A stretch of DNA of 64,000 bases from Clostridia bacterium (GTDB taxonomy: Bacteria; Bacillota; Clostridia; Christensenellales; CAG-1252). The DNA lies in contig JAIKVL010000025.1 in NCBI GenBank assembly GCA_024685775.1, positions 1-64,000 of the forward strand, in the 5' to 3' direction. Of this stretch, positions 3,815 to 17,997 are shown in pieces. Made by a program: the position numbers and the translations under genes. Under the pieces are notes generated by a model, which saw only the letters and a program-made list of their open reading frames with translations, did no database searches and had not been told where the DNA came from. Position 1 is the first letter of the stretch; each line of letters starts with the position of its first letter.

Positions 3815-6800
3815 ATGTTTGAAATTAATAACTTCGATTCCATAAAAATCGGTCTTGCTTCTCCCGAAAAGATCAGAGAATGGTCTTGCGGCGAAGTCAC
3901 CAAGCCGGAAACGATCAATTACAGGACGCAAAAACCCGAGCCGGACGGCTTATTCTGCCAAAAGATCTTCGGGCCGACCAAAGACTGGGAGTGCGCCTGC
4001 GGAAAGTATAAGAGAATTCGCCATAAGGGCGTCGTTTGCGATCGCTGCGGCGTTAAAGTCGAGCAAAGCAAAGTCCGCCGCGAGCGCATGGGTCATATCG
4101 AGCTTGCCGCTCCGGTCGCGCACCTTTGGTATTTGAAAGGGACGCCGAGCCGTATCGCCACGATCCTCGATATGCCGCCGAAAGAGGTGGAGCACGTCGT
4201 CTATTACGCGAGCTACGTCGTCTTGGATCCGGGCACGACGGGTCTTCATAAGAAGCAAGTCTTGAACGACATCGAATATCGCGACGCGATCGACACCTAC
4301 GGAGAAGGCAGCTTCAAAGTCGGTATGGGCGCGGAAAGCATCAAGATCCTTCTCCAAGAGATCGACCTTGACAAAGAGATCGTCGAGATCCGCAAAGCGA
4401 TCGCCGAAGATCAAAAGTCCTCGAAGGATAACGCGCAAGCGCCGAAGAGAATGAAACTCGCGAAGAAGCTCGAAATCGTCGAAGCCTTTAAGGCGACGGG
4501 TTCCAAGCCCGAATGGATGATTATCGAAGCGCTTCCCGTCCTTCCCCCGGAGCTTCGCCCGATGGTTCCCCTCGACGGCGGCAGATACGCGACTTCCGAT
4601 CTGAACGATCTTTATCGTTTCGTCATTTCGCGTAACAGACGTTTGAAGCACTTCCTGCAAACCGGCGGCGTGGACGCGATGATTCGCAACGAAAAGCGTA
4701 TGCTTCAAGTCGCGGTCGATAACCTGATCGACAACAGCAAGAAAGCGAAATCCAATTCTTCCGGAAAGAGCCGCGAACTCAAATCCCTGACCGCGATGCT
4801 CAGAGGTAAGCAAGGTCGCTTCCGTCAGAACCTTCTCGGTAAGCGTGTCGACTATTCCGGTCGTTCCGTTATCGTCGTCGGCCCCGAACTCAAACTCTAT
4901 CAATGCGGTTTGCCGAAGGAAATGGCGCTCGAACTCTTCAAGCCTTTCATTATGAAAGAGCTCGTCGAGAGAAATATCTGCAACAATATCAAGAACGCGA
5001 AGCGTTACGTCGAAAGAGCGAGAAGCGAAGTTTGGGACGTTCTCGAAGATATCATCAAAGACCATCCCGTCCTTTTGAACCGCGCTCCGACGCTTCACCG
5101 CCTCGGTATCCAAGCGTTCGAACCCGTCCTCGTCGAAGGTAGGGCGATCAAACTGCACCCGCTCGTTTGCGGCGCGTTCAATGCGGACTTCGACGGCGAC
5201 CAAATGGCTGTCCACGTTCCTCTTTCCATCGAGGCGCAAGCGGAAGCGAGATTCCTTATGCTCTCGACGAACAACATCTTGAAGCTTTCGGACGGCAAAC
5301 CCGTTATGACCCCGACGCAGGATATGATCCTCGGAAGTTACTATCTGACGATCGAGAAAGAAGGCGCGAAGGGCGAAGGCAAGTACTTTATGAGCGTGGA
5401 CGAGGCGAAACTCGCCTATGCGAATAAGGATATCGAACTCCAAGCGAAGATCTACGTCCGCGTCAGCAAAGAGATCGACGGCAAAGTCGTTACGGGCAGA
5501 ATCCACACGACGCTCGGCCGCTTCATCTTCAACGAGGCGATCCCGCAGGATCTCCACTTCGTCGACCGCAGCGATCCCGCGAACGCGCTCGCTCTCGAAA
5601 TCGACTTCCTCGTCGGCAAGAAGCAGCTCGGACAGATCGTTGAAAAGTGCTTTAAGTACAAGGGCAGCACCGAGACCGCCGTCGTCCTCGACAAGATCAA
5701 GGCGCAGGGCTTTAAGTACTCTACCATCGGCGCATTGACGACCAGCGTCTTCGATATGCATATCCCCAAAGAGAAAGACCAGATCATCGCGGACGCGGAA
5801 AAGAAAGTCGCGGACGTCGAGAAGCTCTTCCGCCGCGGTCACATTACGGACGCGGAGAGAGCGAAGCAGGTCATCGCGATCTGGAACAAAGTTACGGACG
5901 ACGTTACCGACGCTTTGTCCAAGTGCTGGGATAAATTCAACCCGATCAAGATGATGGAGCAGAGCGGCGCTCGTGGTAATATGAGCCAGATCCGTCAGCT
6001 CGCCGGTATGCGTGGTCTTATGAAAGATCCTACCGGTAAAACCATCGAGCTTCCTGTCAAGAGCAACTTCCGCGAAGGTTTGTCCGCTCTCGAATACTTC
6101 ATTTCTTCCCACGGCGGTCGTAAAGGTCTCGCGGATACCGCGCTTAAAACGGCGGAATCCGGTTACCTCACCCGTAGGCTCGTCGACGTCTCGCAATCGG
6201 TCATCATCCGCGATATGGATTGCGGCGACAAGAAGGGTATCGTCGTCAGCGCGATCTACGGCGGCAGAGGCGATTTGATCGAGGTTTTGAAAGATCGTAT
6301 CATCGGAAGATACACGATCGACGCGATCGTCAATCCGAAGACGGGTGAAGAGATCGTCCCGGCGGACGCGATGATCAGCGAAGAAGCCGCGAAAGAGATC
6401 GAAAAGGCGGGCATCGAGAGCGTCAAGATCCGCAGCGTGTTTACCTGTAAGTGCGCGACGGGGCTTTGCTCCAAGTGTTACGGTAAGAATATGGCGAGCG
6501 GCAACCCCGTCAAGATCGGCGAAGCGGTCGGCGTCATCGCGGCGCAGTCCATCGGCGAGCCGGGTACCCAGCTTACGATGCGTACGTTCCACACCGGCGG
6601 TGTCGCGTCTTCCGAAGATATCACCCAAGGTTTGCCGCGCGTCGAAGAACTCTTCGAGTGCCGCAATCCGAAAGCGCAGGCGATCATTTCCGATATCGCA
6701 GGTACCGTGACGATCACCGAAAAGAACAAGAAGCGCACGATCGTCGTCGAGAACGAGCAAGACAGAAAGGAGTACGTCCCCGCTTTGAACGCGAAAGTCC

Positions 6801-8691: not shown

Positions 8692-8721
8692 TTGATTTTA
8701 CGGGGTTTTCCGTGTTACAAT
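8692..8721 (+). promoter_or_regulatory. promoter of the Cys-rich lipoprotein block
   Basis: TTGATT (8692-8697), an 18-nt spacer, then TACAAT (8716-8721). It lies just after the metK terminator and 72 nt before the chosen start of the large lipoprotein gene. No other promoter is seen before the genes that follow at 11-19 nt spacing. Confidence 0.6.
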
Positions 8722-8793
8722 AAAAAAAGCGTTTCGAAGAAACGCAGAGAAGATCGCCGTTTCGGCGAGCAAAGGTTTTCGGGGAGTTCGGCT

Positions 8794-11700
8794 ATGAAAA
8801 AATCATTCGCTTTATTGATTTTGATCGTCAGCGTCGTCGCGCTCCTTTTTTGCTTTGCTTCCTGCGATCTTTTGTCGAGCATTCTCGGAAATTCCGAGCC
8901 TCTCGAACCCGAACTTCCCGAAGGGGAGTACTCGGCGTGGAAATCCAACGAGAACGGGACGCATTCACGCTATTTTCTTTCCGATCCGACCGTAACCGAG
9001 ACGAAGGATTGCAAAATGAAGGAAAAAACCGCGGAAGCGACTTGCGTGTCCGGCGGTTACACGAAATATACCTGCCCCCTCTGCGCGTATTCTTACGTTT
9101 CGGACAGGACGGAGCCCGATCCCGATCGCCATCAGCTCGTCTTCCACGAGAAACGAAACGCAAGCTGCACGGAGGACGGCTGGAAAGCCTATTACACCTG
9201 CGCGCTTTGCGCATATTCGTCCTTTGAAGAACTTCCCGCCACGGGTCACGATTTTTCCGATTGGGAATATTTGAACGAAACGCAGCATATCCGCGTTTGC
9301 CGTAATTGCGACGTTCGAGGGTACGCGGATCACGACTTTACGGAGGACGCCGCGGTAGAGGAGACCTGTTCTTCCGCGGGGCGGACGGAAGGAATGCATT
9401 GCGCGGCTTGCGAAAAAGTCTTCAAAGCGCAGGTCGAGATCCCCGCCGATCCCGAAAAGCATCGACTCGTATCCGTCGCGGCGAAGCGCCCGGGTTGCGA
9501 GGAAGAAGGTTGGAATGCGTATCGGTATTGCGAGCTGTGCGATTATTCGGAGAAAACCTCGATCGATCCGTTGGGTCATAAAAAGTCTTATAATTTGTCG
9601 AGCGATTCAAGCGGGCATTTCCGCACCTGCCTGCGCTGTTCCGAGCGGCTCGGGGTCGAACCGCACGAAAACGAAATCGAGGAAGCGGTCGAGCCGAGTT
9701 GTTTCCGCGACGGGCGGACGGAAGGCGCGCATTGCAAGGTTTGCGGCTATCGGACCCGAACGCCCGAGATCGTCCCTCGGATCGGCAGTCACGATTTAAC
9801 GGAATATCCCGCCGCGGAGCCCGATTGCGTAACGCCCGGAAACGAAGCGTACGTCCGTTGCTCGCGATGCGATTATACCGATTACAAAGAGATCCCCGCG
9901 CTCGGACACAGTAAGACGGAGTACCCCGGGAAACCCGCGACTTGCACGGAGAGCGGCTTCGCGAATTATTTCGTTTGCTCGCGTTGCTCGTTCTCTTCTT
10001 ACGCGGAGCTTCCCGCGAAAGGGCATACGCTCGTCGAGGAAGAAAGCGAGCCCCCGACTTGCCTCACCGCGGGACACGACGCTTATTCCCATTGCTTGAA
10101 TTGCGATTTTACGACCTATCGAGAGATCCCCGCGCTCGGTCACGAGATCGAAAACCATCCCTACGCCGAGCCGACTTGCGTGAAAGACGGGTGCGCCGCG
10201 TATGAGACGTGTTCTCGCTGCTCGTATACCACCTTTGAGAGGATCCCCGCGCTCGGGCATCATCCGGGCGAACTTCAATCGAATGAAAGCGGGCATTTCC
10301 ATCTTTGCGTTCGTTGCTCGGCTCAGATGGATTCTACCGCGCATACGCCCGTCACCGATCCGAGGGTGGAAGCGACTTGCACCGAAACGGGCTTGACCGA
10401 AGGGGCGCATTGCTCGGTCTGCGCTTACGTCACCCTCGCGCAAGAGACGATCCCCGCGGCGGGGCATGCTTTGGAGCATTACGCCGCCGAAGCGCCTACT
10501 TGTCTTTCGGATGGTCACGCGGAATACGAAGCTTGCCGAATTTGCGACTACACGACCTATACCGTCATTCCCGCGCTCGGACACGACGAGATTCCGCACG
10601 AAGGTCTCGAACCGACCTGCACCGAAAGCGGCTATTCGGCGTACGTCACCTGCTCGCGTTGCGACTATTCGACCTATTGTGAATTGCCCGCAAACGGTCA
10701 CACGATCGTTTCTTACGATAGGAAGGAGGCGACCTGCACCGAAAGCGGGCATAACGCTTATGAAGAGTGTACTTGCTGTTCGTACACGACGATAGAGATG
10801 TTTGCGCCGCTTGGGCATTCGGAGGGGAGCGAATTGGGCAGAGACAGCTCGGGACATTACTATTATTGCGCTCGTTGCTCGATCCCGATGGATCTTCTTC
10901 CGCATACGCCCGCGATCGATCCGGGAGTGGAGGCGAATTGCTCCGAAACGGGCTTGACCGAAGGCTCGCATTGCTCGGTCTGCGCTTACGTCATCCTTGC
11001 GCAGGAAACGATCCCCGTAAACGAGGATCACGTGCTTATCGATCATCCCGCGCAAGCCGTAACTTGCACCGAGGAAGGCTGGGCGGCATACGTTACTTGC
11101 TCGCGCTGCTCCTATTCGACGTACGGGGCGATCCCCGCGCTCGGGCATTCGCCGAGCGGCTCGTATTACGATGATTCGGCACATTGGGCAAAGTGTTCGC
11201 GTTGCGAGTCGGCTTTGACGCGCTCGCCGCATTCGTTCTCCGTCCTCGCATCCGTGTCGCCCGACTGTGTGAATGCGGGCGAGGATACTTACGGGTGTTC
11301 GGCTTGCGCTTATACCTATTCCGAGGCGACTCCCGCGCTCGGTCACGATTACGTCGTCTACGATAATATCCCGCAAACCTGCGTTACCTACGCGCACTTT
11401 TACAGCGCTTGCTCGCGTTGCTCCGATTCTTACGAGTACACGGGGACCGAGTACGCGCCGCATCAATACGAAGCGGAAACCTGCAAGGTCTGCCGGCGCA
11501 ACGAGCTTATGGATTACTACGAGACGTTTACCTTACACGGAAATAATTCTTCCGACTTGATCAGTATCCGAGATGAGAAAGAATTGCGGTTGTTATACGA
11601 CTACTTGCTGTTCTATAAAGTGACGTATTACAAATACTTTTCTTATCCGAACCTGACGGTCTCGGAATTTGAAGATCTTGTGGATCAGCTCCTCAAAAAA

Positions 11701-12831
11701 ACCACCGCGCAAAATTGGGCGTTCCAATATTCGCACGGCGGCAGTCCCCTATATTTTAGGATGCGTTGCATGAGCGAGGATAATTTCCGCCTCGATAAAG
11801 TCGCTACCCTTTTGCCCGGGCAAGACTATGCGATCGAGGAACGCGCGCAGCAGGACTTCCTCGCGATAAACCGAATGGGCGAGGCGCGGGGCGATTCCTT
11901 CGAGGATTTCCCGTATTTGACGAGGATGAATTCCGTCTCCGTTACTTCCTCCGACCAACTCTTTTACGCTTTCTCTCACGGCTATAAACCCATCCCGACT
12001 TCGGGGTCCGCCGCGGAGCGGATGATGAATAAAGCGAAAACGATCTGTCGCGAATATATTTCGGACGATATGACGGACGTTCAAAAACTCTATGCGATCA
12101 TGCAATGGATGGTCGCGGAAGTGACCTACGATTACGGAGCGATCACCGCTTCGGATTCGGGTTCGATCCTTTGGCAGTATGCGACCGCTTGGTATGCGGA
12201 AGGTGTCTTCGACTATCATCTCGCGGTTTGCGACGGGATCGCGAAAGCGGTCTGCATTCTCGCGGGTATCGAGGATATCAAATGCGTTCGCGTGCACGGA
12301 AATTCGCACGCTTGGAATCGAGTCTGGGTCGACGACGGAAGCGGGGAAAAGAAATGGTTCGTCTACGACGCTACGCACGCGAACCTCGGCGTAAACGGTT
12401 CTTACGAAACGTTCGCGCTGAAAAACTTTTTGATCAGCGACCGACAAAAAAGCGAGTTCCACTACGTAGCCGTTAACTATACCGAGGAAAACTGCGCGGC
12501 GGTTACGGAAGGCAATCCCTATGCGTTCGTTCATTACGGAACGGCTGCGGAATCGCAATCGAACGATCTTGTGATCGTAAACGCCGGCGAGTTGGATGCG
12601 GTCGTTCAAACACTCGTGCCGGTGCGAAACGCGTCCGACACCGATTACGTTACGATCGAGATCTTTATCGACGCGGCGTACTGCCCGACGATGGATGATT
12701 GCTCGAATGCGGTTCGGCAGGCGTTAAACAGCGCGTTCTGTTATAAATCGTTCAGCTATATCGGTGGCGCGGCGACCTACGGGGAAAGGAGCGGATTCCG
12801 CTATATGATCCTCTTGGGAACGGCAAGCTAA
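8794..12831 (+). CDS. giant Cys-rich repeat lipoprotein with transglutaminase-like domain
   Basis: Predicted surface lipoprotein of 1345 aa. The ATG at 8794 follows GGGGAG (8781) and opens a lipoprotein signal peptide ending in a lipobox with FASC; the frame stays open upstream but has no signal there. About residues 80-905 hold some 17 degenerate repeats of about 39 aa with the pattern C-x10-C-x2-C followed by GH (typical ending IPALGH); some carry an extra CxRC insert after SGH. Three Cys and one His per unit suggest zinc binding or disulfides. The C-terminal third contains a transglutaminase-like/papain-fold triad: C1146 (AVCDGIAKA), H1172 (GNSHAWN) and D1192 (WFVYDATH). Substrate is unknown; cell-wall or protein cross-linking or proteolysis are possible. 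It leads a tight five-gene run. Confidence 0.85.
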   Translation: MKKSFALLILIVSVVALLFCFASCDLLSSILGNSEPLEPELPEGEYSAWKSNENGTHSRYFLSDPTVTETKDCKMKEKTAEATCVSGGYTKYTCPLCAYSYVSDRTEPDPDRHQLVFHEKRNASCTEDGWKAYYTCALCAYSSFEELPATGHDFSDWEYLNETQHIRVCRNCDVRGYADHDFTEDAAVEETCSSAGRTEGMHCAACEKVFKAQVEIPADPEKHRLVSVAAKRPGCEEEGWNAYRYCELCDYSEKTSIDPLGHKKSYNLSSDSSGHFRTCLRCSERLGVEPHENEIEEAVEPSCFRDGRTEGAHCKVCGYRTRTPEIVPRIGSHDLTEYPAAEPDCVTPGNEAYVRCSRCDYTDYKEIPALGHSKTEYPGKPATCTESGFANYFVCSRCSFSSYAELPAKGHTLVEEESEPPTCLTAGHDAYSHCLNCDFTTYREIPALGHEIENHPYAEPTCVKDGCAAYETCSRCSYTTFERIPALGHHPGELQSNESGHFHLCVRCSAQMDSTAHTPVTDPRVEATCTETGLTEGAHCSVCAYVTLAQETIPAAGHALEHYAAEAPTCLSDGHAEYEACRICDYTTYTVIPALGHDEIPHEGLEPTCTESGYSAYVTCSRCDYSTYCELPANGHTIVSYDRKEATCTESGHNAYEECTCCSYTTIEMFAPLGHSEGSELGRDSSGHYYYCARCSIPMDLLPHTPAIDPGVEANCSETGLTEGSHCSVCAYVILAQETIPVNEDHVLIDHPAQAVTCTEEGWAAYVTCSRCSYSTYGAIPALGHSPSGSYYDDSAHWAKCSRCESALTRSPHSFSVLASVSPDCVNAGEDTYGCSACAYTYSEATPALGHDYVVYDNIPQTCVTYAHFYSACSRCSDSYEYTGTEYAPHQYEAETCKVCRRNELMDYYETFTLHGNNSSDLISIRDEKELRLLYDYLLFYKVTYYKYFSYPNLTVSEFEDLVDQLLKKTTAQNWAFQYSHGGSPLYFRMRCMSEDNFRLDKVATLLPGQDYAIEERAQQDFLAINRMGEARGDSFEDFPYLTRMNSVSVTSSDQLFYAFSHGYKPIPTSGSAAERMMNKAKTICREYISDDMTDVQKLYAIMQWMVAEVTYDYGAITASDSGSILWQYATAWYAEGVFDYHLAVCDGIAKAVCILAGIEDIKCVRVHGNSHAWNRVWVDDGSGEKKWFVYDATHANLGVNGSYETFALKNFLISDRQKSEFHYVAVNYTEENCAAVTEGNPYAFVHYGTAAESQSNDLVIVNAGELDAVVQTLVPVRNASDTDYVTIEIFIDAAYCPTMDDCSNAVRQALNSAFCYKSFSYIGGAATYGERSGFRYMILLGTAS
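9037..11505 (+). repeat. tandem coding repeats, C-x10-CxxC-GH units
   Basis: About 17 degenerate repeats of roughly 115-120 bp within the lipoprotein gene, several extended to about 200 bp by an SGH-CxRC insert. Most are diverged, but a 144-bp segment at 10312-10455 recurs with high nucleotide similarity at 10873-11016, indicating a more recent internal duplication. Each unit encodes three Cys and a Gly-His pair. Confidence 0.85.
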
Positions 12832-12850: not shown

Positions 12851-13882
12851 ATGAAAGCGGCGTTCGTCATTCTTCTTTCGATCCTGATCGCGGTTAGCGG
12901 CGGGCTTCTCGCGTACGGCGCGATCCTCGGACCCGCGAAAACGTTCGTTCCCGAATCGAGCGGCGTTCTCGAAGCGCCTCCGCCGAATATTTATATGGCG
13001 GGCGAGACGCCGAACGACGTTTCCGTGTCTCTCGTTCAAAACCTAACGCCCGAGCAGGCGGCGGATGCGCTCCTTGCGGTCACCTATAATTCGCTGATGG
13101 CGGAGCGGTATTACTTCTTCTGTCACGTCGACGCTCTTGCGGGCAATAAGTACTCCTGTTCGGATTATTTCAGGATCTTGCAAAGGGGCGCGGATTTCTT
13201 CTATCAGGCGCTGACCTACGGCGGCGGGTGGAACGTCGGCGTTTGTCACGCCGCGATCGGCTCGACCCGCCTCGACGCCACGACCTTGAATGTCTCCTAC
13301 GATCGCTCCGCGAAGACGTTCGACGCGGCTTTTCCCGATCGTCCGGACGTCAGGGAGGCGAATCCCGGCGCGTTCGCGCGGACCCCGTATCGCGTGTACG
13401 GGCTGTTCGGGCTGCCCCTCGGTTTGGACGCGAAGGATTGGCGCGGGACGGATTACTCCGTTATGACGGGCGCGACCGTTTCGGTCGAGTCTCCGTCTCC
13501 CGCCGCTCCGTATTACAGGCTTTTCCTTTCGCTCGACCCCGCCGCGGCGAACGCTTCCGCGGAAACGCTTCGTCGCTTGAACGAGGGCGCGGGCGGCAAG
13601 ATGAAGAACCTGACGGTCTCTTCCTTGACCTTTACCTTCGAGATTTGGGAGTGCGGGCTGTTCCGTTCGATCGAGGTCTCGTCCGATCTGACCGCGACGC
13701 TCGGCGGGAAGACGGGAAAAGCGATGTTGAAGCGATCCTATGAATTCAGCTATGATAAAAAAGCGGCAAGCATCCTTTCGCAACTCAAAGAGAAGGGATG
13801 GGAAAGGGCGTTGAAAGCGTCCGATCTCGAAAAACTGACGGAGAGGGAAGCGGCGGAAGCCGCGCCCGCTTCGAATCGATAA
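12851..13882 (+). CDS. membrane-anchored protein, tandem paralog 1
   Basis: I do not recognise this 343-aa protein. It starts with a short basic segment and a hydrophobic helix (residues 3-24) without a lipobox Cys, so it is probably anchored by an uncleaved signal with the rest outside. The start has GAGGGGTGAGG upstream. The body contains the sequence YFFCHVDALAGNKYSCSDYF and a conserved FEIWECGLFRSIEV stretch, both repeated in the next gene, of which it is clearly a tandem duplicate. It begins 19 nt after the Cys-rich lipoprotein stop and is likely co-transcribed. It has no nucleotide-binding or catalytic motif I can name; an all-beta ligand- or surface-binding domain is only a guess. Confidence 0.85.
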   Translation: MKAAFVILLSILIAVSGGLLAYGAILGPAKTFVPESSGVLEAPPPNIYMAGETPNDVSVSLVQNLTPEQAADALLAVTYNSLMAERYYFFCHVDALAGNKYSCSDYFRILQRGADFFYQALTYGGGWNVGVCHAAIGSTRLDATTLNVSYDRSAKTFDAAFPDRPDVREANPGAFARTPYRVYGLFGLPLGLDAKDWRGTDYSVMTGATVSVESPSPAAPYYRLFLSLDPAAANASAETLRRLNEGAGGKMKNLTVSSLTFTFEIWECGLFRSIEVSSDLTATLGGKTGKAMLKRSYEFSYDKKAASILSQLKEKGWERALKASDLEKLTEREAAEAAPASNR

Positions 13883-13894
13883 ACGGAGGAATCT

Positions 13895-14908
13895 ATGAAA
13901 AAAGTTATCGTCATCATTCTCGCGATCCTGATCGCCGCAAGCGGCGGACTTCTCGTCTACGGCGCGATCCTCGGACCCGCGAAAACGTTCGTTCCCGAAA
14001 AGGACGGCGTGCTCCTCGCTCCGCCCGCGAACATTTACTCGGAGGGAAAAGCGGCGTACGATCCGTCTTCCGCGCTCGTTCAAAACGCGTCGTCCGATCA
14101 GATCGCCGAAGCGCTCGTAAACGTTTGCTATAATCATCTCAGGGTAAAACGCTATAATTTCTTCTGTCACGTCGATTCCCTCTCGGGGAATAAATACGGC
14201 TGTTCGGATTATTTCAGGATCGTCCAAGACGGAACGGACTTCTTTTATCAGGCGTTGACCTATGCGAGCGGAACGAACACGGGCGTTCGCCACGCTTCGA
14301 TGGGAAACACGCGCTTCGACGTGACGACGTTCAACGTTTCGTACGATCGCTCGACCAAGACTTTCGACGCGGCTTTCCCCGATCCCACTCCGAAAGAAAC
14401 TCCGGGAACGCCCTATAATTATTATCCGGACAGACCCGAGGTTCTCTTTAATCTTCCCTTGGCGCTCGCAGACGAATCGGGGAAAACAGCCGACTATTCG
14501 GTTATGGCGAACTGCTCGTTCGATCTTGCGCTTCCTTCCGCGTCCGCGGGGTATTACACGCTGGAACTTACGCTCGATCCCGCCTCGGTCAACGCGTCTT
14601 CGGAAACGATCCGTTGTTTGAACGATTGTATGGGCGGTAAAATGAAAAATATCAACGTCAGCGCGTTGAGCTTCCGTTTCGAGATATGGGGAAGCGGCGT
14701 TTTCCGCAAGATCGACGTGAATTCGGAATTCACGGCGACCGTCAGCGGTAAAACGGGAAGCGGGAAAATGACTCGCGCCTACGAATTCAGTTACACGCCG
14801 GAAGCCGGCAGTATTCTGAAACAATTAAAGGACGCCGATTGGGAAAAATTCTGCCCGCAAAAGGATAAAGACATCCTTTCGGCGCGTGAAAATTCTTGGA
14901 TCGAATAG
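13895..14908 (+). CDS. membrane-anchored protein, tandem paralog 2
   Basis: A 337-aa homolog of the preceding gene along its whole length. The two share the N-terminal anchor followed by GAILGPAKTFVPE, the central FFCHVD-GNKY-CSDYFRI block, NVSYDRS-KTFDAAFPD, GGKMKN and the C-terminal YEFSY segment. The Cys residues in FFCHVD and CSDYF are kept in both copies, while others are not. The start has GGAGGAATCT upstream and the gap to its paralog is only 12 nt. Function is unknown. The pair may form a hetero-oligomer or reflect diversified substrate recognition at the cell surface, which is inference from the duplication only. Confidence 0.85.
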   Translation: MKKVIVIILAILIAASGGLLVYGAILGPAKTFVPEKDGVLLAPPANIYSEGKAAYDPSSALVQNASSDQIAEALVNVCYNHLRVKRYNFFCHVDSLSGNKYGCSDYFRIVQDGTDFFYQALTYASGTNTGVRHASMGNTRFDVTTFNVSYDRSTKTFDAAFPDPTPKETPGTPYNYYPDRPEVLFNLPLALADESGKTADYSVMANCSFDLALPSASAGYYTLELTLDPASVNASSETIRCLNDCMGGKMKNINVSALSFRFEIWGSGVFRKIDVNSEFTATVSGKTGSGKMTRAYEFSYTPEAGSILKQLKDADWEKFCPQKDKDILSARENSWIE

Positions 14909-14923: not shown

Positions 14924-16489
14924 ATGAAAGCGGTTTGGCAAAAGATAAAAAGCGTAGCCTCTTCGCGCGCGTTTCTCGCGGTTTTTACTCTTCTCGCTTA
15001 CGCGGAGATCTACGTCTTCGTTTCGAGTTCCTTTTTCGAGAGAGATCGTTCGCTTTTCGGTCCCGCGTTCATAGGGATCTTACTTCTTTCGCTCTCGATC
15101 GCTTTGACTTTGTTTTTCGGCGTTTCGCTGTTTCTTGCCGTCTATCGTAAGGAAGGGGAGAGAAACGGCGTCTTTTGTTTGGTCGCGGAGATCGTCGCGC
15201 TTCTTTTCGGGGCGGCGCTTCCGATCTTGACGTATTACGGAAGAATGACGGAAAGCGTTACTTTTTTGAAAACGCTTCCGTATTTCGCGGCGGGGCTCGT
15301 CGCGATCGCGACTTTGTTTTTGATCCCTCTCGCGAAGAAGAAAGCGATCCTCGCGTTCGTCGCGGTCGCCGTCTTTGTCGGACTTTCCGCGGGCGTGACG
15401 GCGATCTCCGCGAACGGTGAAAAACTCGAATTCGAGGCGGCGCCCGTCGTCTTCGACACGGGGAAGGATTTCTCCGTCGTGTGGTGCACGAACGCCGTTT
15501 CCGTCGGCTATTTGGAATATACCTACGGCGATCAAAAGTACGTCGTTTACGACGCGTCGGACGGTAAATATCGCCTCGATCGCAGGGTGCATACCGTGCG
15601 CGTTCCGTACGAGCACCTTTACGGCAACACCTATACGGTGGCTTCCGCAAAAGTGCTGCGAAACGCGTCGCGGGATCCCAAACTCGGCACGTTTATCAAG
15701 TCGAAAGGTTACAAATTCGCCGACAAAGTCACCGGCGACGAATTGAAGATGCTTTCTCTGACCGATTGGCACGAGAAGACGGATCGCGCCGCAACGCTTG
15801 CGGAAATGCGCTCCGATTACGATCTCCTCTTGGTGATGGGGGACGAGATCAATTATGTAAACGAATTCGAAGATATCATAAACTTCGCGGTCATTCCCGC
15901 CGGAAAGATCACGGGCGGCGTTAAGCCCGCGCTCTTCGTGCGGGGCAATCACGAGATCCGCGGCAAGTATTCGGGCGAAATCAAATCCGTGATCGGCTTG
16001 GAGAATTATTATTTTACGACGAGTTACGGCGAAGTGAATTTCCTCATTTTCGACGGCGGGGATACCAAGCCGGATGAGGACGCGGAATTCGGCGTCGTGA
16101 ACGTGTGCGAGAGTTACCGTGAAAAGCAACTTGCGGAGATGGAAGCGCTCCCCGTGATCGCTACGGGCTATAACGTTTGCCTGTGCCATATCCCGCTCTT
16201 TTCCAGAGAGATCCTCGATGAGGAGCCCAAGGGGGAGAAAGCGGACGAACAGTACGAGCGCTTTGCCGCCATTCTCGCGCATCACGAGGTCAAGCTCGAA
16301 ATAGCGGGGCACGAGCATTTCCTCGACTATACGCAAGGCGGCGCGAGTGCCACCTTGATCGCGGGCGGCCCCACCGAAGCGAACGGATACGTCGCCTGCT
16401 TTATCACAGTTAAGGCGGGCGTGGCGAATATCGAGGCGTATAACGCGGAGGGTACCGTGGCGACGTACGGCCCCCTCGCGCTTCGTTAA
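14924..16489 (+). CDS. membrane metallophosphoesterase (calcineurin-like)
   Basis: A 521-aa protein with about five N-terminal transmembrane helices (roughly residues 17-37, 47-72, 82-104, 117-136, 139-161) followed by an extracytoplasmic-type beta region and a C-terminal calcineurin-like phosphoesterase domain. Metal ligands are visible: D281 and H283 (SLTDWHEK), D307 (VMGDEI), N342-H343 (RGNHEIRG), a CHIPLF histidine, and H463/H465 (GHEHF). Such enzymes hydrolyse phosphomonoesters or diesters; the substrate here cannot be told from sequence. It starts 15 nt after the second paralog and ends 11 nt before the GH27-rhodanese gene, so it belongs to the same transcription unit. Confidence 0.9.
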   Translation: MKAVWQKIKSVASSRAFLAVFTLLAYAEIYVFVSSSFFERDRSLFGPAFIGILLLSLSIALTLFFGVSLFLAVYRKEGERNGVFCLVAEIVALLFGAALPILTYYGRMTESVTFLKTLPYFAAGLVAIATLFLIPLAKKKAILAFVAVAVFVGLSAGVTAISANGEKLEFEAAPVVFDTGKDFSVVWCTNAVSVGYLEYTYGDQKYVVYDASDGKYRLDRRVHTVRVPYEHLYGNTYTVASAKVLRNASRDPKLGTFIKSKGYKFADKVTGDELKMLSLTDWHEKTDRAATLAEMRSDYDLLLVMGDEINYVNEFEDIINFAVIPAGKITGGVKPALFVRGNHEIRGKYSGEIKSVIGLENYYFTTSYGEVNFLIFDGGDTKPDEDAEFGVVNVCESYREKQLAEMEALPVIATGYNVCLCHIPLFSREILDEEPKGEKADEQYERFAAILAHHEVKLEIAGHEHFLDYTQGGASATLIAGGPTEANGYVACFITVKAGVANIEAYNAEGTVATYGPLALR

Positions 16490-16500
16490 AGGAGGGGCGT

Positions 16501-17997
16501 ATGACGGAGGATCTCAAAAGAAAGACCCCGATCATGGGGTGGGCGTCTTGGAACTGCTTCCGGACGAACATATCGGAAGAAAAACTCAAAGCGCAATTCG
16601 ACGCGCTCGTTTCGACGGGGCTCGCGGCGAGCGGCTACGTTTACGCGAACACGGACGACGGCTTTTTCGGCGGTCGCGATGCGGACGGGAAACTTTTGTT
16701 TCATAAAGAGCGTTTTCCGAACGGGATCAAGGTCCTTGCGGAATACGCGCACGCGCTCGGGCTGAAAGCGGGCATTTATTCGGAGGCGGGCAGGGCGTCT
16801 TGCGGGTATTATTACGACAACGAGGGGAAAAACGGCGCAGACGTCGGTTTGTTCGGTCACGAAAGAGAGGACCTCGAAACCTTCCTCGTCGATTGTGATT
16901 TTGATTTTCTCAAAGTCGATTGGTGCGGCGCGCTTCGCGAAGGCGTGGACGAAAAAGAAGAGTACGTCAAGATCGGAAAGATCCTGAACGAGATCCGCGG
17001 ACGCAAGGGAAAGAGCGTCGTCTATAATATCTGCCGCAAGTTTTTCCCCGGAGAATGGGCGGTCGAGATCGCGGATTCCTGGCGCACCGCCGCGGATATC
17101 CGACCGGATTTCGCCTCGATCCTGCGCCAGATCGACAATATCAAACCGCTTCGGAGATTCTGCTCTCCGGGTCACGTTAACGATCTCGATATGATGCAGA
17201 TCGGGAACGGGCTTTCGCCCGCGGAAGAAAGAACGCATTTTGCGATGTGGTGTATGATGTCCACGCCGCTGATGATCGGTTGCGACTTGACGAAGATCCC
17301 CGCGGAAACGCTTGCCGTTTTGAAAAACGAAGAACTGATCGCGCTCGATCAGGACGAAGCGTGTTTGCAGGCGTTCGTCGTGAAAGAGATCAAGGGCGAA
17401 AGCGGAGCCTTACTCGGCGAAGTTTGGGTAAAGGAACTCGGGAAGAAAAACTCCGCGGAAAAGGCGATCGCATTCCTGAACCGAAGCGACGAGCCTCTTT
17501 CGATGTCGATCGACCCAAAAGAAGCGGGGCTTCTCGGGCGTCTTCTTTCCGTTCGCGATCTTTGGAAGAAAAAAGATCTGCCGCTCGGCGAGCCGCTGTC
17601 GTTTTTCGTTCCGCCGCGCGAAACAGTCGTGATTCGCGTAAGAAGCGAGAAAGCGGGAGAATGCGCGGACGTAAACGAATCTTCCGCCTACGTCGAGCCC
17701 GCGCCGTTCATCCCGATCTCTCGGGAAAAGGCGCGCGAACTTGTCGAAAACGGGGCGCTCCTTCTCGACGCGCGAACGAGAGAAGAATATAGGGAAGGGC
17801 ATTTGAAAGGCGCGCTTTGCACGCCGTTTACCGAGATCTATTCTCACATCTCGGAAACCGTCCCAACCAAAGACACGGTCTGTGTCGTCTATTGCTCGAA
17901 AGGGCTTCGAAGCGCGCAGGTCAAGTACACGATGGACCACATGGGCTATACTCGCGTTTATTCGGTCGGCGGCATCGAATGCGAGGGAGAACTCTGA
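16501..17997 (+). CDS. GH27 alpha-galactosidase fused to a rhodanese domain
   Basis: A 498-aa two-domain protein without signal peptide, hence probably cytoplasmic. Residues 8-390 are a GH27 alpha-galactosidase-type domain: TPIMGWASWNCF at the start, NTDDGFF, GLKAGIYSEAG, the nucleophile D140 in FLKVDWCG, and the probable acid/base D199 in SWRTAADI, then a C-terminal beta domain. Residues 407-498 are a rhodanese: LLDARTREEY, the six-residue active loop C465-SKGL-R470, and VYSVGGIE. One uninterrupted frame joins both domains and a good ribosome site (AAAGGAGGGG) precedes the ATG. Expected activities are galactoside hydrolysis and sulfur (persulfide) transfer; why they are joined is unknown. 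It is the last gene of the block. Confidence 0.9.
   Translation: MTEDLKRKTPIMGWASWNCFRTNISEEKLKAQFDALVSTGLAASGYVYANTDDGFFGGRDADGKLLFHKERFPNGIKVLAEYAHALGLKAGIYSEAGRASCGYYYDNEGKNGADVGLFGHEREDLETFLVDCDFDFLKVDWCGALREGVDEKEEYVKIGKILNEIRGRKGKSVVYNICRKFFPGEWAVEIADSWRTAADIRPDFASILRQIDNIKPLRRFCSPGHVNDLDMMQIGNGLSPAEERTHFAMWCMMSTPLMIGCDLTKIPAETLAVLKNEELIALDQDEACLQAFVVKEIKGESGALLGEVWVKELGKKNSAEKAIAFLNRSDEPLSMSIDPKEAGLLGRLLSVRDLWKKKDLPLGEPLSFFVPPRETVVIRVRSEKAGECADVNESSAYVEPAPFIPISREKARELVENGALLLDARTREEYREGHLKGALCTPFTEIYSHISETVPTKDTVCVVYCSKGLRSAQVKYTMDHMGYTRVYSVGGIECEGEL

Follow-up and report, generated by a model that had tools for sequence, protein, structure and literature searches.

A conserved fusion of a GH27 glycosidase with an active-looking rhodanese domain in gut Clostridia

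Here we report that a gene in the window, the whole 64,000-nucleotide stretch of clostridial DNA that was analysed, joins a GH27 glycosidase to a rhodanese domain that looks active, and that this fusion is old, has been kept under selection and occurs in several families of gut Clostridia. It is a conserved domain architecture built of two known families and apparently undescribed, no paper on a GH27-rhodanese fusion having been found in the CC-licensed literature, a scope outside which most subscription journals lie. As to what the rhodanese may do for the glycosidase, we rank slightly ahead of other readings a weakly held one, in which sulfur would be transferred in cis from the rhodanese to thiols of the GH27 part and so tune the glycosidase.

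Results

Three domains in one reading frame

The fusion gene occupies positions 16501-17997 of the forward strand as a single uninterrupted frame of 498 amino acids, beginning with ATG, ending with a TGA at 17995-17997 and preceded by a Shine-Dalgarno-like AGGAGG at 16490-16495 (+). Its product is matched by three Pfam families, each above its own curated gathering cut-off. Melibiase_2, the GH27 catalytic barrel, spans residues 9-285 (16525-17355, +) and is covered end to end (profile positions 1-284 of 284, E 3.9e-38), which places the protein in GH27, and the fold of the barrel matches 3A21 and 1UAS. The catalytic aspartate pair is present and invariant, with the predicted nucleophile D140 in a KxDxC motif (FLKVDWCG; 16918-16920, +) and the predicted acid/base D199 in a WRxxxD motif (SWRTAADI; 17095-17097, +). 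The barrel is followed by the GH27 C-terminal beta-sandwich (Melibiase_C, residues 307-380, 17419-17640, +; Pfam 9.4e-10), whose strands are also present in an AF2 model of the protein, by a linker of 27 residues (381-407, 17641-17721, +), and by a single rhodanese domain (residues 408-491, 17722-17973, +; Pfam 5.9e-14) that scores 52.8 bits against a cut-off of 22.2. That barrel, beta-sandwich and rhodanese lie together in one 498-residue protein is close to certain.

An earlier, sequence-only reading of this DNA had claimed a complete GH27 domain with D140 and D199, continuing in the same frame into a catalytic-looking rhodanese, and had proposed a search with both profiles; that search bears out both claims. 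The Melibiase_C domain was not in that reading, nor were a second, secreted architecture and a changed pocket residue, R179, described below. The reading was also right that the protein has no signal peptide, since residue 9 is already part of the GH27 domain.

The AF2 model, made with 44 sequences, has a pLDDT of 92 and a pTM of 0.90, and most of the linker is modelled with high confidence. The model suggests that the rhodanese is probably held in a fixed position against the GH27 part, although the larger domain contributes most to the pTM. Of 44 relatives, 35 have a linker of 26-27 residues.

The rhodanese keeps its catalytic residues

The active loop of the rhodanese, C465-S-K-G-L-R470, lies at 17893-17910 (+). 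C465 is invariant in all 55 aligned rhodanese copies, which have 28-80% identity to the window copy, as are D423, R425, H434 and A438, and the loop arginine is kept in more than 90% of copies. Active rhodanese domains are recognised by a Cx4R/T loop that contains the cysteine; domains lacking it are regarded as interaction modules (PMC10135228). The loop found here is of the former, single-domain type, and by its residues the domain looks catalytically competent; a degenerate rhodanese was rejected on the same residues. The routine lack of the C465/R470 loop among homologues, which the sequence-only reading had named as fatal to its case, is thus not observed. Between close pairs, NG86 dN/dS is about 0.05-0.25 for the rhodanese and 0.02-0.20 for GH27 (values with dS above 1 being unreliable), and the rhodanese is under purifying selection. 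The PspE NCBIfam cut-offs (126.3 and 102 bits) are not reached, the scores being 51.4 and 51.3 bits.

Two architectures among gut bacteria

A scan of genome contigs returned 77 loci. Of the 64 GH27 relatives in which the sequence 3' of the GH27 part could be read, 60 have the fused rhodanese; three further relatives, cut by contig ends, lie outside this count. The survey of genomes proposed earlier thus finds the fusion to be widely kept. A short form of about 500 residues accounts for 48 loci, including the window, and a long form of about 1040 residues for 12; four close relatives (L078, L080, L082 and L090) have no rhodanese. Both domains were matched in 12 of 391 genomes, from five families, in a class-wide sample whose genome collection overlaps that of the scan, so the counts are not independent, and some of the assemblies surveyed are near-duplicates. 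Among 297 genomes sampled across the order, the top five rhodanese matches all belong to fusions from the window's genus, and their scores stand well clear of the rest. Assemblies with a named source come, among others, from goat, buffalo, roe deer, water deer and sheep; a Treponema assembly also holds a copy, and a third, divergent fusion of 36% identity was found in one genome (G394, locus L180). Two loci hold what appear to be truncated remnants, with no run of N in either: in L106 (Eisenbergiella porci, 5001-5174) the GH27 gene can be recognised only over its first 63 residues, and in L099 (2868-3404) only over about the first 180.

In the long form (L083, L084, L087-L089, L091-L097) GH27 is followed by about 300 residues, the rhodanese and an NPCBM domain, as found by domain scans of L083 and L091, with the other loci placed by alignment. 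The N-terminus is signal-peptide-like, as judged by eye, in 11 of the 12; the leader of L097 differs, being rich in Thr, Pro and Asp. We take the short form to be cytosolic and the long form secreted, as their N-termini predict. The earlier statement that the protein acts inside the cell consequently stands for the 498-residue protein and fails for the family. The middle segment of about 300 residues is conserved and beta-rich and has no Pfam match, and directly upstream of eight of the twelve long-form genes lies a homologous small lipoprotein-like gene. A model of a 1030-residue long form was poor (pLDDT 69, pTM 0.36) and was left out of the analysis.

Origin of the fusion

In a tree with 42 other rhodaneses of the order, the short, long and divergent forms make one clade (support 92, not starred), and the GH27 domains of the fused forms group together against other GH27s with support 99. 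The simplest reading, which both trees fit, is one fusion event followed by joint descent and at least one loss. L078 and L080, nested in the short clade, would be a clear loss of the rhodanese, and L082 and L090 may represent either a loss or the state before fusion. That the short and the long form each captured a rhodanese separately is not favoured, their rhodaneses falling in that one clade. Among free-standing rhodaneses, the highest scores against the fused domains go to short proteins of lipoprotein type; such single-domain lipoprotein-type rhodaneses occur in related Clostridia at L143-L148, L152, L153, L110, L159 and L167.

An altered sugar-binding pocket

Residue R179 (17035-17037, +) stands at what we take, from alignment plus family knowledge, to be the position of Glu203 in human alpha-galactosidase A (alpha-Gal A), and the two invariant pocket cysteines C101 (16801-16803, +) and C142 (16924-16926, +) presumably correspond to human C142 and C172, the human numbering being carried over by sequence alignment through the rice enzyme. 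Otherwise the pocket is kept: Asp52-Asp53, K138, D140, R195, D199 and the cysteines C101, C142 and C178 are all present. At the Glu203 position classical enzymes have Glu, all 48 short forms have Arg, and the long form has Cys, with one Ser. Glu is not universal elsewhere either, since the GH27 protein of L181 also has Cys. L078 and L080, which lost R179 together with the rhodanese, have Cys as well. R179 tracks the rhodanese only in part: L082 and L090 carry the arginine but no rhodanese, and in the long and divergent forms, which do have a rhodanese, the residue is Cys (one Ser).

In human alpha-galactosidase A, Glu203 and Leu206 exclude N-acetylgalactosamine (PMC8791529). Because an arginine invariant in the short form replaces this Glu, membership of GH27 does not fix the exact sugar. 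The GH27 part is probably an exo-glycosidase of alpha-galactosidase type, predicted to trim imported plant oligosaccharides; since a residue for sugar recognition is altered in this branch of GH27, the substrate may be new. A filter for GH27 residues specific to the fused forms, which could mark a sulfur acceptor or an interface, passed none; C101, C142 and C178 are invariant in all fused forms and equally so in GH27s without a rhodanese.

Genome and locus context

No Rhodanese match other than the fused domain was found in the window's genome or in four fusion-bearing congeners, and several further congeners lack such a match altogether, all of these genomes being drafts of 71-97% completeness. 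The genome has a galactokinase-type domain, and no match to the GalT family (GalP_UDP_transf) was found in it.

The fusion gene is flanked by recD2 and by an upstream gene for a membrane-type metallophosphoesterase (14924-16489, +; Metallophos 2.4e-9), which ends 11 bases before it. A homologue of the latter (cluster c11) lies upstream in L033, L034, L063 and L085 too, making it a possible operon partner. The neighbourhood varies among relatives, with no universal neighbour; in other lineages it includes GH78, GH2, GH43, GH51 and GH88 genes, AraC regulators and ABC sugar transporters. No sulfur-metabolism partner recurs among the 25 commonest neighbour families listed.

Further upstream on the same strand, 8692-12831 encodes an exported protein of about 1340 residues with many repeated Cys-x-x-Cys units and, after them, a weak transglutaminase-like match (translated residues 1081-1191); the Cys-rich repeats match no Pfam family to any meaningful degree. 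Beyond it, 12851-13882 and 13895-14908 (+) encode adjacent, similar exported proteins of 343 and 337 residues, an apparent tandem duplication with no Pfam family above cut-off.

Discussion

According to the mechanism that we tentatively put first, C465 would pick up sulfane sulfur from thiosulfate, polysulfide or a persulfide and pass it in cis to GH27 thiols, for which C101 and C142, with C178, are the best candidates. The state of these cysteines, persulfide or disulfide, would then set or maintain glycosidase activity according to the supply of sulfane sulfur. The sequence-only reading had offered, as one option, that the rhodanese could be a redox or sulfur sensor of the glycosidase, and it is in the form of this cis transfer that we rank that option. 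We count in favour of such a transfer the intact Cx4R loop, whose Cys persists in 55 of 55 copies though identity falls to 28%, a rhodanese dN/dS close to that of GH27, the near-constant linker, the AF2 scores (pLDDT 92, pTM 0.90), the two trees that indicate a single fusion (92 and 99), and the invariance of C101, C142 and C178 in fused forms. Furthermore, as the rhodanese is the sole one found in the genome, its sulfur function, if any, would be tied to the glycosidase. There is an engineered precedent, in which the rhodanese-fold protein Tum1 persulfidates a fused dithiol partner that then forms a disulfide (PMC10060159). However, that fusion had no advantage over the free proteins (PMC10060159), which weakens the analogy. 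The three cysteines give no evidence of coupling, being equally invariant in GH27s that lack the rhodanese, and about 300 residues separate the two domains in the secreted form. Nor is the rhodanese essential to the GH27 fold, given that L078 and L080 lost it and keep an intact GH27. The proposal in its full form, in which the built-in rhodanese would persulfidate the pocket cysteines of the glycosidase, or bring them into disulfides, and sulfane sulfur would thereby set the enzyme's activity in cytosolic and secreted versions alike, we hold to be quite improbable.

The ordered linker and high pTM would also fit a structural role, and the rhodanese may instead be a docking, dimerisation or stability module whose sulfur chemistry is vestigial or unimportant. 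In other fusions rhodanese folds serve to mediate interactions (PMC10135228), and the secreted form keeps its rhodanese away from the cytosolic supply of sulfur. Nevertheless, purely structural rhodanese domains are defined by the absence of the cysteine (PMC10135228), and here it is present in every one of the 55 copies and the loop arginine in above 90%, so that we regard this explanation as doubtful.

That the fused rhodanese is the only one found in the window's genome and in four fusion-bearing congeners could also mean that two independent activities are simply co-expressed, with a general sulfurtransferase or cyanide-detoxifying enzyme riding on the glycosidase. Yet the two domains have stayed joined by a linker of almost constant length while the sequences diverged widely, which suggests that the joining itself matters, and genus members without any rhodanese match argue that the activity is not a required household function. 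We consider this rather unlikely.

The sequence-only reading had suggested a sulfur-bearing glycoside or glycolipid as the target, an idea that can be broadened to cyanide detoxification: the GH27 part would act on a plant glycoside to release the sugar, leaving a sulfur- or cyanide-bearing aglycone for the rhodanese to handle. Many of the bacteria that carry the gene live in herbivore guts, some relatives sit in plant-glycan loci, and R179, standing where the human enzyme has Glu203, suggests that the sugar or a substituent on it is non-standard. However, the known cyanogenic glycosides and glucosinolates are beta-glucosides, which are not GH27 substrates. Where relatives lie in operons, glycoside hydrolases (GH78, GH2, GH43, GH51, GH88) and sugar transporters are among the neighbours, with no recurrent sulfur gene among the 25 commonest families listed; a sulfur-bearing target is so far unsupported, and such a bifunctional enzyme is unlikely. 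Finally, an error of assembly or gene calling can be dismissed. The earlier reading had named confinement of the fusion to this contig through assembly error as a refutation; the same junction recurs in dozens of independent assemblies from many hosts and studies.

The fusion protein offers a concrete case in which to ask whether reactive sulfur species of the gut control carbohydrate breakdown. Were control by sulfane sulfur true, it would directly link such species to the breakdown of plant glycans by gut bacteria.

The GH27 part resembles the alpha-galactosidases of rice (1UAS) and human (GLA) and the beta-L-arabinopyranosidase of Streptomyces avermitilis (3A21) in its barrel, beta-sandwich and catalytic Asp pair, with 32-33% identity to 3A21 and 1UAS in structural alignment. 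It keeps the DD pair of alpha-galactosidases (D52-D53) where 3A21 has DE, but differs from GH27 alpha-galactosidases in having Arg179 in place of the Glu at the site that recognises the 2-position. The fold matches listed are GH27 or related glycosidases, and among the PDB matches listed by sequence none spans both GH27 and rhodanese. Like the single-domain rhodaneses, such as E. coli PspE and the standalone lipoprotein-type proteins of related Clostridia, the fused rhodanese is one domain with a six-residue loop of Cx4R type, and in NCBIfam it scores best against PspE and the rhodanese portion of a MoeB model, in every case far short of the cut-off. Unlike them, it is fused C-terminally to a cytosolic glycosidase, and the fused copies form a clade of their own. 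The engineered Tum1-roGFP2 fusion likewise joins a rhodanese-fold protein to one with a reactive cysteine pair, but it is artificial and of the two-domain MPST type, and so an analogy of mechanism only (PMC10060159). There are also other enzyme-rhodanese fusions, seen among the PDB matches or in neighbouring genomes, where a single rhodanese is likewise attached to an unrelated catalytic domain, namely CoA-disulfide reductase, metallo-beta-lactamase or a TtcA-like protein. The sampled CoA-disulfide-reductase-type and TtcA-like rhodaneses fall outside the fused-GH27 clade, and in all these fusions the partner carries out sulfur or redox chemistry, which a glycosidase does not.
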